This document shows, piece after piece, positions 6,379 to 57,390 of a DNA stretch of 64,000 nt. The DNA comes from Candidatus Alloclostridium intestinigallinarum (lineage in GTDB: Bacteria; Bacillota; Clostridia; Christensenellales; UBA3700). The notes beneath the pieces were generated by a model. It searched no databases. It saw only the letters and a list, made by a program, of their open reading frames with translations, and was not told the origin of the DNA. The position numbers were made by a program, and so were the translations under genes. Positions within the stretch are counted from its first letter, which is position 1; every line of letters starts with the position of its first letter. The DNA lies in assembly GCA_904382605.1 (NCBI GenBank), contig CAJFJA010000003.1, positions 62,001 through 126,000 on the forward strand, written 5' to 3'.

Positions 6379-6415
6379 TACGGGCGGCAAACGTATTGCC
6401 GTCCGTAATTTTTTC
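6379..6415 (+). terminator. Rho-independent terminator after aroF
   Basis: Stem ACGGGCGGCAA / TTGCCGTCCGT with a short loop, followed by a T run. It lies about 25 nt after the aroF stop. Confidence 0.85.
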
Positions 6416-6438
6416 ATACACTTTTTCCGCCCGCGAGG

Positions 6439-6561
6439 GCACCGCATATAAGGCGCGTGATACTTTGTCAAAGCAGTTTTTTTTCTCAGGTTACGTACGC
6501 CGAGTACGCGCCCATCGCAAAAAACTACTTTTCCTCGTCTGACACGCCTTCTCTGCGGTGC
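6439..6561. repeat. Long imperfect hairpin element
   Basis: A 123-bp imperfect palindrome. Its left arm GCACCGCATATAAGGCG pairs with a right arm ending CTTCTCTGCGGTGC, and the apex holds GTACGCCGAGTAC. The layout resembles the 160-bp hairpin family at 23669, 51408 and 56881, with unrelated outer arms. It lies between the aroF terminator and the next repeat cluster. Confidence 0.5.
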
Positions 6562-6654
6562 GTTTAAGCGTAGCAAAAAAGCGGTAAAAATAATGGCATT
6601 GCGAAGAATAAAGAAAAGTCTTTTGTTTTGTCGTTGCAGGGGGGTAAGTGGTGA

Positions 6655-22207: not shown

Positions 22208-23386
22208 ATGGACGAAATAAAGCAAAAGGATAAAAAATACATCTTAGGCACTTACGGCAGATTCGATCTGCATATCGTGCGCGGAAGCGGCGCGGAGTGC
22301 GAGGACGAACAGGGCAAAAAGTATATCGACCTGGGCAGCGGCATAGGCGTGAACTGCCTGGGATACTGCGACGGCGGCTGGGTAAAGGCGGTTGAAAAGC
22401 AGCTGGAAACGCTCCAGCACACTTCCAACCTCTATTACACTACCCCCGGCGCGGAACTTGCCGAGGCGCTTTGCGAAAGGACGGGATATAAAAAGGTATT
22501 CTTCTGCAATTCGGGCGCGGAAGCGAACGAAGCGGCTATCAAGACGGCGCGCAAGTACTCCTTTGACAAGTACGGCGCAGGCAGGGATAAGATTATCACC
22601 CTTGACAAGTCCTTCCACGGCAGAACCATGGCTACGCTTACCGCCACCGCGCAGGAGGCTATGCACAACTATTTCTTCCCCTTCAACGAAGGCTTTGTCT
22701 ACTGCGGCAAGGATATAGAGGAGATAAAAAAGCAGGAAGGAGTCTGCGCCGTAATGCTGGAATTTATCCAGGGCGAGGGCGGCGTTATTCCGCAGAATAA
22801 GCAGTTTATAGCGCAGGTTTACGACTACTGCAAAGAAAGCGATATTCTGTTTATCGCCGACGAAGTGCAGACGGGCGTGGGCAGAACGGGCAAATTTCTG
22901 TGCAGCGAACATTACGGAGTGCACCCCGACGTAACCACTCTTGCCAAGGGGCTGGGCGGCGGCTTGCCGGTAGGCGCAATGCTGGTCGGCGAAAAGTGCG
23001 AAAACGTGATGGGCGCGGGCACCCACGGTTCCACGTTCGGCGGCAATCCCGTCGTGTGCGCGGGCGGAAAGTACGTGCTTTCCCGTATCGACGAAAAACT
23101 GCTTGAAGAAGTTGCCGCCAAGGGCGAATATATCAAATCGCGCCTTGAAGGAGTAAAGGGCGTTAAGAGCGTAAGCGGCTTGGGGCTTATGCTGGGCATA
23201 GAACTCGACGGCAAGAAGGCGGCGGACGTGGTGAAGGAGTGCATGGCAAAGGGCGTTATACCGCTCACGGCAAAGGACAGGGTGCGCCTGCTTCCCCCGC
23301 TTATTATCACCATGGAACAGCTGGCGCGTGCAATGGACGTGCTTATTCAGGTGCTACCCGTATCCAACCCCAGTAGAACACTTTAA
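22208..23386 (+). CDS. argD: Acetylornithine aminotransferase with element-derived C-terminus
   Basis: PLP-dependent class III aminotransferase that makes N-acetylornithine. The 392 residues include FFCNSGAEANEAAIK, the cofactor Asp in FIADEVQTG, and the PLP lysine Lys247 in TLAKGLGGG. The normal end of the family falls at about AMDVLIQVL. The last nine residues (PVSNPSRTL) and the stop codon are encoded by the left terminal repeat of the MITE-like element at 23355, which has replaced the native stop. The enzyme core is complete, so activity is probably kept. Confidence 0.95.
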   Translation: MDEIKQKDKKYILGTYGRFDLHIVRGSGAECEDEQGKKYIDLGSGIGVNCLGYCDGGWVKAVEKQLETLQHTSNLYYTTPGAELAEALCERTGYKKVFFCNSGAEANEAAIKTARKYSFDKYGAGRDKIITLDKSFHGRTMATLTATAQEAMHNYFFPFNEGFVYCGKDIEEIKKQEGVCAVMLEFIQGEGGVIPQNKQFIAQVYDYCKESDILFIADEVQTGVGRTGKFLCSEHYGVHPDVTTLAKGLGGGLPVGAMLVGEKCENVMGAGTHGSTFGGNPVVCAGGKYVLSRIDEKLLEEVAAKGEYIKSRLEGVKGVKSVSGLGLMLGIELDGKKAADVVKECMAKGVIPLTAKDRVRLLPPLIITMEQLARAMDVLIQVLPVSNPSRTL

Positions 23387-23570
23387 TCGTACTGCTTTCG
23401 GCATATTTGCACAATCTGTCGACTTGTTGTAGGTCACTACAACTGCGCGCCATCTCGCACAAATCTGCTCGAAACCAGTTACGCTGAAAGCAAGGCATTT
23501 TACAACCCGACATACAAACATATTTTATGTTTCACTGTAAAATGTGCTCTACTGAGGTTGGGTACGGGTA
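23355..23570. mobile_element. MITE-like element, short copy, fused to the end of argD
   Basis: 216 bp with terminal inverted repeats beginning TACCCGTA, about 24 of 27 positions matching between ends. It shares its text with 8955-9330 but lacks the two nested modules. Its interior (TTTGCACAATC...GCACAAATCTGCTCGAAA...TACGCTGAAAGC) also resembles the core of the 160-bp hairpin family. It encodes no protein. Confidence 0.8.
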
Positions 23571-23587
23571 GGCGGATAAATTGACTA

Positions 23588-23668: not shown

Positions 23669-23835
23669 GGCGGTGCCGTCGGGTGGCTTTGGAAAAGCGT
23701 TATTGACGCAGGTATTTTTGAGCAAATCCGTGCAATACGGAACGAAGGCGTAGCAGAGTTACGTCGAGCGACGAATTGTGCGGAGATGCCGAAAAGAGCG
23801 CGTCAAGAGCGTGTTTTCAAAGTCAGACGGCGGCG
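23669..23835. repeat. 160-bp hairpin-family element in the argF leader
   Basis: Inverted relative to the copies at 51408 and 56881. The core reads GAGCAAATCCGTGCAATACGG, GGCGTAGCAGAGTTACG, GAGCGACGAATTGTGCGGAG. Outer arms GCCGTCGGGTGGCTTTGG and CAAAGTCAGACGGC can pair with interruptions. It ends a few bases before the argF ribosome-binding site. Confidence 0.65.
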
Positions 23836-50316: not shown

Positions 50317-51408
50317 ATGGGCTTCGGGCTTTATATCCACATTCCCTTTTGCAGAAAAATTTGCGCGTATTGCGACTTTTACAGGGGCGTTTACGATGAA
50401 AAAAAGGCGGAAAAGTATCCGCACGCCCTCGGCGCGGACGCGGAAGATTTCGTAAAAAAGTATTCTCTTACGGGGGAAGCCGATACCGTGTATATAGGCG
50501 GCGGCACCCCCACCGTTTTGCCCCGCGGTTATCTGGGAGCCGCCCTAACAATGATAAAAAAGCATATCCGTATAGCGGAAGGGGCGGAGTTTTCCTGCGA
50601 GGGCAACCCCGAATCTTTTACCGACAAAAAGGCGGAGGAGTTGAAGGCGCTGGGCGTGAACAGAGTTTCGCTGGGCGTGCAGTCGCTTTCCGATAAAACG
50701 CTGTCCGCACTCGGCAGAATCCACGGCGCTAAGGAGGCGAAAAAGGCGGTAGGACGCGCGGCGGGTTGCGGCTTCCGCGTGAGCGCGGATATTATGCTGG
50801 GCGTGCCGTACCAGACGGAAGCGGACGTGCGCGAATTTGCCGCGGTAATGCGCTCTCTGGGCGCGGAGCACCTGTCCGCATATATGCTTACCATAAGCGA
50901 AGGCACTCCGCTTGCAGATATGGTGCGGCGCGGAGAGTTTTCTCCCGACGACGACCGCTCGGCGGACTTGTATTCGGCATTCCACGATGCCGCGGCGCAA
51001 GCCGGATACGCGCGCTACGAGGTGAGCAACTGGGCGCTCCCCGGCAGAGAGTGCAGGCACAATATCAAGTATTGGACGGGCGGCGATTACGCCGGACTGG
51101 GCGCGGGGGCTTATTCCAAGGTCGGCGGTTGCCGCTTCCATACCGCTCCCGACGCAAACGCGTACGTAGGCGGTAATATTGCGCGTATAACCGATGAGGT
51201 CATGACGGAAAAACAGCTTGCCGCGGAAAAAGCCGTGTTCGGCTTGCGCACGCGCTTGGGCGTGGATAAAAACACGCTTTCCGCCGCGGGCATAGACCTT
51301 GAAAAACTGCTCAAAACCCCTTATTTCACTTTTGACGGCAACGCCCTGCATATCAAAGACGAATATCTGCTTACCTCCGACGGTATAGTCATTAAATATA
51401 TTTTATAG
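50317..51408 (+). CDS. hemW: Radical SAM heme chaperone HemW
   Basis: 363 residues. It has the radical SAM site CRKICAYC (CxxxCxxC) and YIGGGTPT, and the extra aromatic-rich region of the HemN/HemW family. HemW binds heme and delivers it to proteins; many are annotated as oxygen-independent coproporphyrinogen oxidase, but true HemN has a different N-terminus and the lepA context favours HemW. The stop codon TAG overlaps the first base of the hairpin element that follows. Confidence 0.92.
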   Translation: MGFGLYIHIPFCRKICAYCDFYRGVYDEKKAEKYPHALGADAEDFVKKYSLTGEADTVYIGGGTPTVLPRGYLGAALTMIKKHIRIAEGAEFSCEGNPESFTDKKAEELKALGVNRVSLGVQSLSDKTLSALGRIHGAKEAKKAVGRAAGCGFRVSADIMLGVPYQTEADVREFAAVMRSLGAEHLSAYMLTISEGTPLADMVRRGEFSPDDDRSADLYSAFHDAAAQAGYARYEVSNWALPGRECRHNIKYWTGGDYAGLGAGAYSKVGGCRFHTAPDANAYVGGNIARITDEVMTEKQLAAEKAVFGLRTRLGVDKNTLSAAGIDLEKLLKTPYFTFDGNALHIKDEYLLTSDGIVIKYIL

Positions 51409-51569
51409 TGTCCGCAGTATCCGCGGCAAAACGCTTTGATAGCAATCTTTTCGCCTCCTTTGCACAACGCCTCGCTCGACGTAGCGCTGCTACGACTTCA
51501 CTCGGTGTTGCGCAAATGCGTACAAAAATCTTTGCTCTGAAAACGCTTTACCGCGGATACTGCGGACAC
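51408..51569. repeat. 160-bp hairpin-family element abutting the hemW stop
   Basis: Outer arms begin GTGTCCGCAGTATCCGCGG and are perfectly complementary over 19 bp, continuing with AAAACGCTTT-like pairs. The core is TTTGCACAACGCCTCGCTCG, ACGTAGCGCTGCTACG, GTGTTGCGCAAATGCG. The arms differ entirely from those of the copies at 56881 and 23669, while the core is shared. Confidence 0.8.
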
Positions 51570-51601: not shown

Positions 51602-51634
51602 GCAAAAAGTCCCGCAAAACTGCGGAACTTTTTG
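51602..51634. terminator. Bidirectional terminator
   Basis: GCAAAAAGTCCCGC-AAAACT-GCGGAACTTTTTGC, good in both directions. It serves the zinc-ribbon gene (minus) and possibly hemW (plus). Confidence 0.85.
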
Positions 51635-51658
51635 CTTTGTGACTTTGTTTACCTTATT

Positions 51659-55393: not shown

Positions 55394-56878
55394 ATGGTAA
55401 AAAAACGCAGGACGCCGCCCGGACAAGGCGGTGACGGCGCGGCTGTTTGCCGCGAAAATTTGCAGCAAAACGAAGAGCAGGGGCGGGAAAAGCAGGAAAA
55501 TTCCTTGCCCGAAATCCAAACCGGAACGCCCGCGGCGGAAAACGCGGAAGTTTTAACTTTGCAAGGCGGAAAGGAAGAGCGCAAGGCGGACAATGCGGAA
55601 AATTCCGCGGAGGTTTCCGGATCTTCCGAAACGGGCAAAGAAACGGACGGCGGCGTGCCGCAGGAGTGCGGGAGCGTAGAAGAGGGAACTGCCGCAAAAG
55701 CAAAACCCGACGTAAAGCAACGGGCGGCGGCTTTTTGGAAGGAAAAGGGGAAGCCTGCGCTGAAAGGACTGCCCAAAAGGTGGTTCATAGACGCCTTTAC
55801 GGGTATGGCGCAGGGACTTTTCGTCACCCTGATTGCCGGCACAATCGTAAAAACGCTGGGAAGCCTGATAGGCGACAACTCCTTCGGCAACTTTCTCACG
55901 CTTCTTGGCAATATAGCCTCCGTCATGATGGGCGCGGGCATAGGCGCGGGCATGGGCAGTAAGCTGAAAGCTCCCGGACTGGTCGTATTCTCCGCAATAG
56001 TCGCCGGCTTTGTGGGGGCGTGGGCGGATATATTCATCACCTGCGCAAGCGACGGCGCAAACGCCGTCATCTCCGCAATCGGCGCGAAAGTGGCGGCAGG
56101 CTCGCCCGGCAACCCGATAAGCGCGTACGTGACCGCGCTTACGGCGATAGAGATTTCTTCGCTCATTGCGGGAAAAACCAAGCTGGATATTCTGCTTGTG
56201 CCGCTCACGTCGCTTCTTGCCACGCTTGCGGGCGCGTATATCTCGTGGCCTTTTTCCTGGCTCATATCCCAGCTCGGAACGGGCATCGCGCTTGCAACCG
56301 ACTTGCAGCCCGTGCTTATGGGTATAATAGTGGCGGCGGTAATGGGTATTCTGCTCACTCTGCCTACGTCCAGCGCGGCGATATGGGTATCTGTGGCGAC
56401 CCCCGTGCTTACGGGCGGCGATCCCACGCAGGTGAACGCCATGCTCATCGCGGGCGGAGCGGCCGTCGTCGGCTGCGCCTGCCATATGGTGGGATTTGCA
56501 GTGCTCAGCTTTAAGGAAAACGGCTGGGCGGGAATAATTTCCCAGGGGCTGGGTACGTCCATGCTGCAAATTCCCAATATAATGCGCCACCCCCAGCTGC
56601 TCATTCCGCCCACGATAGCCAGTATGATATGCGGACCTATCGCCACGGGCGCGTTCAGACTGATGTGCGGTGCAAGCGGCGGCGGCATGGGTACGTGCGG
56701 CTTCGTGGGCATAATAGAATCGTATAACGCGAGCATTATCCAGGGCGGTATGGAGCAGTGGAAATTCTGGCTTGCAATAGCCTTCCTCTTCTTCATAATG
56801 CCTGCGGTAATATGCTGGGCGATAGGCAAACTTATGCGCTATAAGGGCTGGATAAAGGACGGATACCTAAAGATTTAA
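55394..56878 (+). CDS. PTS EIIC-type (PfoR-like) membrane transporter with disordered N-terminus
   Basis: 494 residues. The first 130 are hydrophilic and low in complexity; then nine or so membrane helices match the PTS_EIIC_2/PfoR family (RWFIDAFTGMAQGLFVTLI, GAGIGAGMGSKLKAPGLV, GNPISAYVTAL, CGASGGGMGTCG). No EIIA or EIIB domain is attached, so transport by phosphorylation is not assured; some relatives are called regulators. ATG 55394 is preceded by AGAGGACG. Two hairpin-type repeats begin right after the stop. Confidence 0.8.
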   Translation: MVKKRRTPPGQGGDGAAVCRENLQQNEEQGREKQENSLPEIQTGTPAAENAEVLTLQGGKEERKADNAENSAEVSGSSETGKETDGGVPQECGSVEEGTAAKAKPDVKQRAAAFWKEKGKPALKGLPKRWFIDAFTGMAQGLFVTLIAGTIVKTLGSLIGDNSFGNFLTLLGNIASVMMGAGIGAGMGSKLKAPGLVVFSAIVAGFVGAWADIFITCASDGANAVISAIGAKVAAGSPGNPISAYVTALTAIEISSLIAGKTKLDILLVPLTSLLATLAGAYISWPFSWLISQLGTGIALATDLQPVLMGIIVAAVMGILLTLPTSSAAIWVSVATPVLTGGDPTQVNAMLIAGGAAVVGCACHMVGFAVLSFKENGWAGIISQGLGTSMLQIPNIMRHPQLLIPPTIASMICGPIATGAFRLMCGASGGGMGTCGFVGIIESYNASIIQGGMEQWKFWLAIAFLFFIMPAVICWAIGKLMRYKGWIKDGYLKI

Positions 56879-56880
56879 CT

Positions 56881-57390
56881 AACCCGTCCCCGTGCCCGGA
56901 AAAATCCTTTGAGCGTGATCTTTCCGGCACCTTTGCGCAATACCTCGCTTGACGTAGCGCTGCTACGACTTCGCTCCGTATTGCGCAAATCTGCCCGAAA
57001 ACCTCTACGCTGAAAGGCTTTCCCCGAACCCGTGTACGGGTTCCGTCCCCGTGTCCGGCAAAATCCTTTGAGCGTGATCTTTCCGGCACCTTTGCGCAAT
57101 ACCTCGCTCGACGTAGCGCTGCTACGACTTCGCTCCGTATTGCGCAAATCTGTCCGAAAATCTCTACGCTGAAAGGCTTTCCCCGAACCCGTGTACGGGT
57201 TCCGTCCCCGTGCCCGGCGAAATCATTTGAGAGTGATCTTTCCGGCACCTTTGCGCAATACCTCGCTTGACGTAGCGCTGCTACGACTTCGCTCCGTATT
57301 GCGCAAATCTGCCCGAAAATCTCTGCGCTGAAAGGCTTTCGCCGAACCCGTGTACGGGTTCTGTCCCCGCGTCCGGCGAAATCATTTGAG
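56881..57390. repeat. Three tandem copies of the 160-bp hairpin element
   Basis: Units of about 160 bp begin near 56884, 57043 and 57203, with a fourth partial start at 57361. Each has the core TTTGCGCAATACCTCGCT, GACGTAGCGCTGCTACGAC, CGTATTGCGCAAATCTG, then ACGCTGAAAGGCTTTC, and they are joined by the palindrome GAACCCGTGTACGGGTTC. The outer arms (CCGTCCCCGTGCCCGG) are unlike those of the other copies. The array starts 3 nt after the transporter stop. No gene lies in 56879-57451. Confidence 0.9.

Follow-up and report, generated by a model that had tools for sequence, protein, structure and literature searches.

Arms of a mobile hairpin repeat pair within each copy but are unrelated between copies, and the stem often begins at a stop codon

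How can the copies of a dispersed DNA hairpin share a conserved center while their outer arms differ from copy to copy and still pair with each other? This question is raised by a stretch at positions 51408-51569 of the window, the 64,000-nucleotide segment of the Candidatus Alloclostridium intestinigallinarum contig CAJFJA010000003.1 that was analyzed here. A sequence-only reading had placed related copies at 56881 (three), 23669 and, in part, 23355 and 6439. The 51408-51569 stretch is indeed a 162-nt near-palindrome that folds far better than shuffled sequences, both as RNA of the top strand (-72.5 kcal/mol, z -8.3) and as DNA of the bottom strand (z -9.2). A left arm at 51408-51433 (GTGTCCGCAGTATCCGCGGCAAAACG) pairs with a right arm at 51544-51569, and the 110-nt core between them (51434-51543) carries the apex GTAGCGCTGCTAC. 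The upstream gene is hemW-like (ORF 50317-51408), and the last base of its TAG stop codon (51406-51408) is the first paired base of the hairpin. The element is not an intrinsic terminator by the criterion of a T run at the base of a GC-rich stem, since its right end reads GGACAC-AAGAAG at 51569. A separate terminator-like stem with 15-nt arms, an A-run before and a T-run after it, lies downstream at 51602-51635.

The window holds five further copies. Three tandem copies of this A type occupy 56881-57360 with a period of 159 (cores 56907-57016, 57066-57175 and 57225-57334). They start 2 nt after the TAA stop at 56876-56878, are followed by a truncated fourth copy to about 57395, and precede pepF. 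Tandem arrays are common, as also seen at loci L125, L126, L128 and L130. In several of them (L128, L130, L125) only the first copy has a full left arm, while later copies keep core and right arm and the left arm is replaced by unpaired spacer. A B-type copy, like the preceding copies on the plus strand, lies at 23355-23571, with a left arm (23355-23380), a core (23381-23490), an extra hairpin (23491-23544) and a right arm (23545-23571). The argD frame (22208-23386) runs about ten codons into this copy and the argD family match ends near the junction, so the insertion appears to have replaced the native end of that gene. An A-type copy on the minus strand at 23675-23834 (core 23700-23809) lies upstream of argF, encoding ornithine carbamoyltransferase, and is orthologous to copies in one congener (G002). 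In contrast, the 6439 hairpin is not a member of the family: a covariance model of the core does not report it at E<=0.1, and BLAST links it only to flanks of other repeats. The hairpin at 6400-6600 is a different one, parts of which match DNA beside repeats near contig ends (L113, L116, L117). With this exception, the observation of a hairpin family with divergent but self-complementary arms is confirmed.

Running a covariance model on the genome and its relatives had been proposed in advance as a way to examine the family. RNAalifold predicted no pairs on a slightly shifted alignment, which gave a sequence-only model, and the model was therefore rebuilt with a hand-set structure. It finds about 50 copies in this 1.8-Mb Christensenellales genome of 23 contigs (G000) and copies in four of five congeners (7, 8, 16, 45 and 0 matches, with palindromic copies sometimes counted on both strands); these catalogues rest on searches. 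Two congeners correspond to Candidatus Caccalectryoclostridium and an uncultured Christensenellaceae bacterium. A third set of weaker matches (46-59 bits) has a B-like layout, at positions 54 of contig C18, 15219 of C9, 19939 of C17, 71068 of C10 and 132 of C8 of G000; several are at contig ends, probably breaking the assembly. Half elements fused at the apex to another repeat (CTGCGGCGGCTCGCCGC with a TTCTTCGCAGA hairpin) occur at C3:650, C2:89923 and C18:6668 (L020, L023, L050). Rfam scans of the window and of eight distant loci gave no hit above the gathering cut-off.

We next asked whether the arms are truly coupled, the absence of covariation beyond chance having been set beforehand as an outcome that would count against the idea. 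The own-pairing score has a median of 11, against 1 for arms swapped between copies in this genome, and of 33.8 against 6.1 in copies from other genomes. In the core, 24 of 40 pairs show changes on both sides against 12.3 in shuffles, and sliding the partner destroys the signal. The other adverse outcome named at the outset, fixed ends in copies elsewhere, is observed in length only and not in sequence. Typical A copies have arms of 25-27 nt on both sides, about 162 nt in all, a loose end motif (TACCCG..CGGGTA) and recurrent mismatch positions, so the claim that the arms have no common sequence is mostly right but the ends are not undefined. Pairing stops at a fixed distance from the core, and the flanks of A copies show no extra pairing (own 0.71, cross 0.91). 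A palindromic extension of B flanks beyond the arms is weak (p=0.05) and was not used.

The clearest evidence on mechanism comes from congener G004. The cores of its B copies L137 and L195 differ at 3 of 112 positions, but their arms differ at 12 of 26 pairs, with both sides changed each time and no single-arm change; B copies with such nearly identical cores show zero to one single-sided change, and most of the changes are adjacent. Copy L140 has the left arm of one type and the right arm of another, a plausible intermediate and the state expected before correction. Point-by-point compensation cannot readily do this while the core stays nearly constant, whereas template switching within hairpins, described for RNA genes (PMC8794818), can. 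Coupling is also seen at shared sites, as the G000/G004 site (L018/L206) and the site upstream of argF in G000 and G002 carry the element with largely different but self-paired arms. Orthologous cores are no closer than paralogous ones by eye, so independent reinsertion at the same site is not fully excluded. At the 3' end of matching genes in two genomes, rpoZ-like from our reading of the C-terminus, L250 has TAAGCTAC/GTAGCTTA where L270 has TAGGATAC/GTATCCTA, the stop codon TAA/TAG co-varying with TTA/CTA at the other end.

Comparison with sites lacking a copy, also suggested at the start, bears on both insertion and arm origin. The orthologous 51408 and 56881 sites in congeners are unoccupied and contain no such stem. 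In congener G003, a short TACCCGTAAGGGGACCCGGTGCGGGTA just after the hemW stop (L179), at the same place as the 51408 element, is possibly a remnant of B-type ends. Two B copies of G004 (L192 and L193) lie inside another repeat whose unoccupied copies (L094, L176, L100) read ..GATACG-TA-ACTAAT.., while the filled sites read ..GATACG-TA[CC..GG]TA-ACTAAT... This fits a TA duplication, although the evidence rests on few B sites and an element that simply carries one TA is not excluded. In A copies the same positions hold TG..CA, CA..TG, GA..TC, AA..TT or GC..GC, complementary but not direct repeats, which leaves target duplication undecided for the family. If A copies also began at TA, even the duplication would since have changed in a coupled way, but this is inference. 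The repeat into which B copies are inserted is a second hairpin repeat (ATTTTTATGGGGCGC..GCGCCCCATAAAAAT; L176:325-385, L144, L135, L184 and L100, in congeners G003 and G004), whose stem also differs between copies in a self-complementary way (GAGGGGCGC/GCGTCCCTC, TCAAGTCGC/GCGACTTGA).

The family extends beyond the genus. The apex of the 51408 copy reads GACGTAGCGCTGCTACGAC, and an exact apex 22-mer (GACGTAGCGCTGCTACGMCTTC) occurs in 51 stretches of genomes from Clostridia, Negativicutes, Elusimicrobia, Gemmatimonadota, Desulfobacterota-type groups, Actinomycetota, Myxococcota-type and Chloroflexi-type bacteria. The surrounding DNA folds into the same long hairpin, and the core model matches most of these stretches and finds 2-23 matches per genome in 15 of 18 such genomes. 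Viral contigs contain no exact apex match, and plasmids gave only short weak matches.

Three further regularities emerged that the sequence-only reading had not mentioned. Among distant copies with a co-oriented ORF of 80 codons or more ending nearby, 25 of 41 stops fall in the 20-nt window at the stem base, against 4 of 30 for the antisense control (p=4.5e-5). Copies found by the model without the apex filter repeat this (20 of 24 against 3 of 17, p=3.7e-5). This second window was set after seeing the data and some copies are orthologous, so the p-values are guides; the gene calls are crude ORFs. Transversion-type mismatches recur about every 10 nt along the stem in three sets (top period 10.0, 9.5 and 10.0; permutation p below 0.001, 0.001 and 0.002). 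Finally, isolated mismatches on the top strand are A.C 75 against G.U 12 in the model-found set and 81 against 19 in the apex set, and the same direction holds in this genome. These counts are not independent because conserved columns recur and inflate them; outside the bins with the strongest conserved mismatches, the excess is smaller but still about two to one. A.C on the top strand is G.T on the bottom strand, pointing to the bottom strand as the folded one, and the bottom strand of the 51408 copy folds as DNA with 30 uninterrupted outer pairs.

With moderate confidence, we interpret the element as a member of a widespread family of non-coding, non-autonomous dispersed hairpin repeats, about 160 nt in the A form and about 220 nt in the B form. 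The data themselves demonstrate the fixed-length stem, the conserved apex and core, arms free in sequence but coupled, mobility in the evolutionary sense (presence/absence differences between congeners and dispersal within genomes), recent B copies at TA with an apparent TA duplication, relatives in several phyla, the stem base at the stop codon of a co-oriented gene, the mismatch spacing and the A.C excess. The function, on the other hand, is deduced rather than demonstrated. In this view, the cell or a mobility enzyme reads the folded structure by shape, probably on the bottom strand, with the recurrent mismatches as a ruler, and the arms need only pair. After a mutation or recombination changes one arm, template switching inside the hairpin would copy it onto the other, so that arms turn over in blocks while pairing is kept. 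The recurrent mismatches resist full homogenization, so template switching alone does not explain the structure. Insertion or retention at stop codons would let the element sit in transcribed intergenic DNA without harming the upstream protein. No mobilizer was found: DDE_3 (PF13358) is absent from six of six congeneric genomes, Y1_Tnp from the element-rich genomes G001, G003, G004, G045, G047 and G056, and RVT_1 from G000-G003, and none of these domains tracks the element.

The interpretation offered by the sequence-only reading, namely selection for structure, arm-to-arm conversion or capture of existing terminator stems, is supported in part. Selection for structure is supported by the double changes in the core, the 10-nt mismatch spacing and the hairpins kept at shared sites with different arms, and conversion by the blockwise paired replacement of arms beside nearly identical cores; both probably act. 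Capture is not supported at the two sites tested and seems very unlikely. Although the arms are unique to each copy and some B copies lie inside another hairpin repeat in G004, the empty orthologous sites tested have no such stem, the arm length is fixed and the flanks do not pair. The view that the element is unlike an ordinary MITE is half right, as subfamily B has fixed ends and looks like TA-targeted insertion, while A copies have fixed length but free arm sequence.

The strongest rival, which we regard as possible but less likely, is a cis-acting RNA element of 3' UTRs, in which the sense-strand hairpin starting at the stop codon stabilizes or processes the mRNA or stalls terminating ribosomes, selection on RNA pairing keeps the arms complementary, and copies spread as a MITE. 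The co-oriented placement at stop codons, the covariation and the very stable RNA fold favor it, 32 of 46 anchored copies have a co-oriented gene downstream, several within 45 nt, and relatives in Geobacter were called 'short RNA elements' by the authors who described them. However, A.C mismatches outnumber G.U several-fold on the sense strand, the opposite of what RNA pairing on that strand predicts, and the paired arm changes lack single-arm intermediates; there are no expression data. A plain IS630/Tc1-like MITE, TA-targeted, moved in trans, with arms that are ordinary terminal inverted repeats and diversity due only to age, is doubtful and already weakened. The TA flanks and empty sites of B copies and the dispersed, variable presence of the repeat agree with it, but A-type ends differ between copies yet pair, pairing is retained at shared sites between species, the apex and the 10-nt spacing are conserved across phyla, and DDE_3 is lacking in the genus. 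A more speculative possibility, not excluded by the evidence but tentative, is a cross-phylum class of mobile hairpin DNA whose bottom strand folds into a ladder of about 8-bp helices separated by conserved mismatches every 10 nt, recognized by shape, inserted or retained at stop codons, with outer arms renewed in paired blocks by copying across the hairpin, and moved by an enzyme not yet known. The family offers a natural data set in which arm-to-arm copying inside hairpins can be watched. If a shape-reading mobility enzyme exists for it, that would be a new kind of bacterial mobile-DNA system; if instead it acts on 3' ends of genes, it would be a widespread and overlooked regulatory element.

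The core itself is not new. The same apex, the central palindrome GRCGTAGCGCTGCTACGCC, was printed in 2009 for 24 'predicted short RNA elements' of Geobacter metallireducens (Gmet_R1005 = GSU0160.1 and others; PMC2700814, Additional file 4), which are multicopy, intergenic, noted near lysine/arginine genes and shared between Geobacter species and Desulfotalea. These Geobacter copies were not aligned here, and their expression as RNA is a prediction in the source for which we had no transcript data. There, only an alignment by BLAST is given, and the text consulted does not describe arm coupling, fixed length, stop-codon anchoring, mismatch spacing, strand bias or distribution over phyla; searches of open papers for a name found no second description of the family. 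The present analysis extends what was a footnote in a genome paper to a family found in several phyla with a strict geometry. IS630/Tc1-mariner-type MITEs (RUP, Correia elements, Nezha) are likewise short, non-coding and intergenic with inverted repeats, and share the TA flanks of the B form, but here the conserved part is the center, and terminal inverted repeats are conserved between copies within subfamily B only. REP/BIME sequences, associated with RAYT transposases, are also palindromic, multicopy, extragenic and often near stop codons, but they are 20-40 nt long rather than about 160, and GTAG lies at the apex here, not at the foot (GTAG or CGTC in REP); moreover, the Y1 transposase is missing from several element-rich genomes. 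Integron attC sites are hairpins with free sequence and conserved unpaired features just after a stop codon, with the bottom strand as the folded one. In our element the apex is conserved and the variable parts are outside, no GTTRRRY-type right ends are evident in the copies inspected (an integrase was not searched for), and copies are scattered beside housekeeping genes rather than in cassette arrays. Template-switch maintenance of hairpins, or quasipalindrome correction (PMC8794818), predicts multi-base compensatory changes in both arms at once, although it is a mutation process and not an element family.
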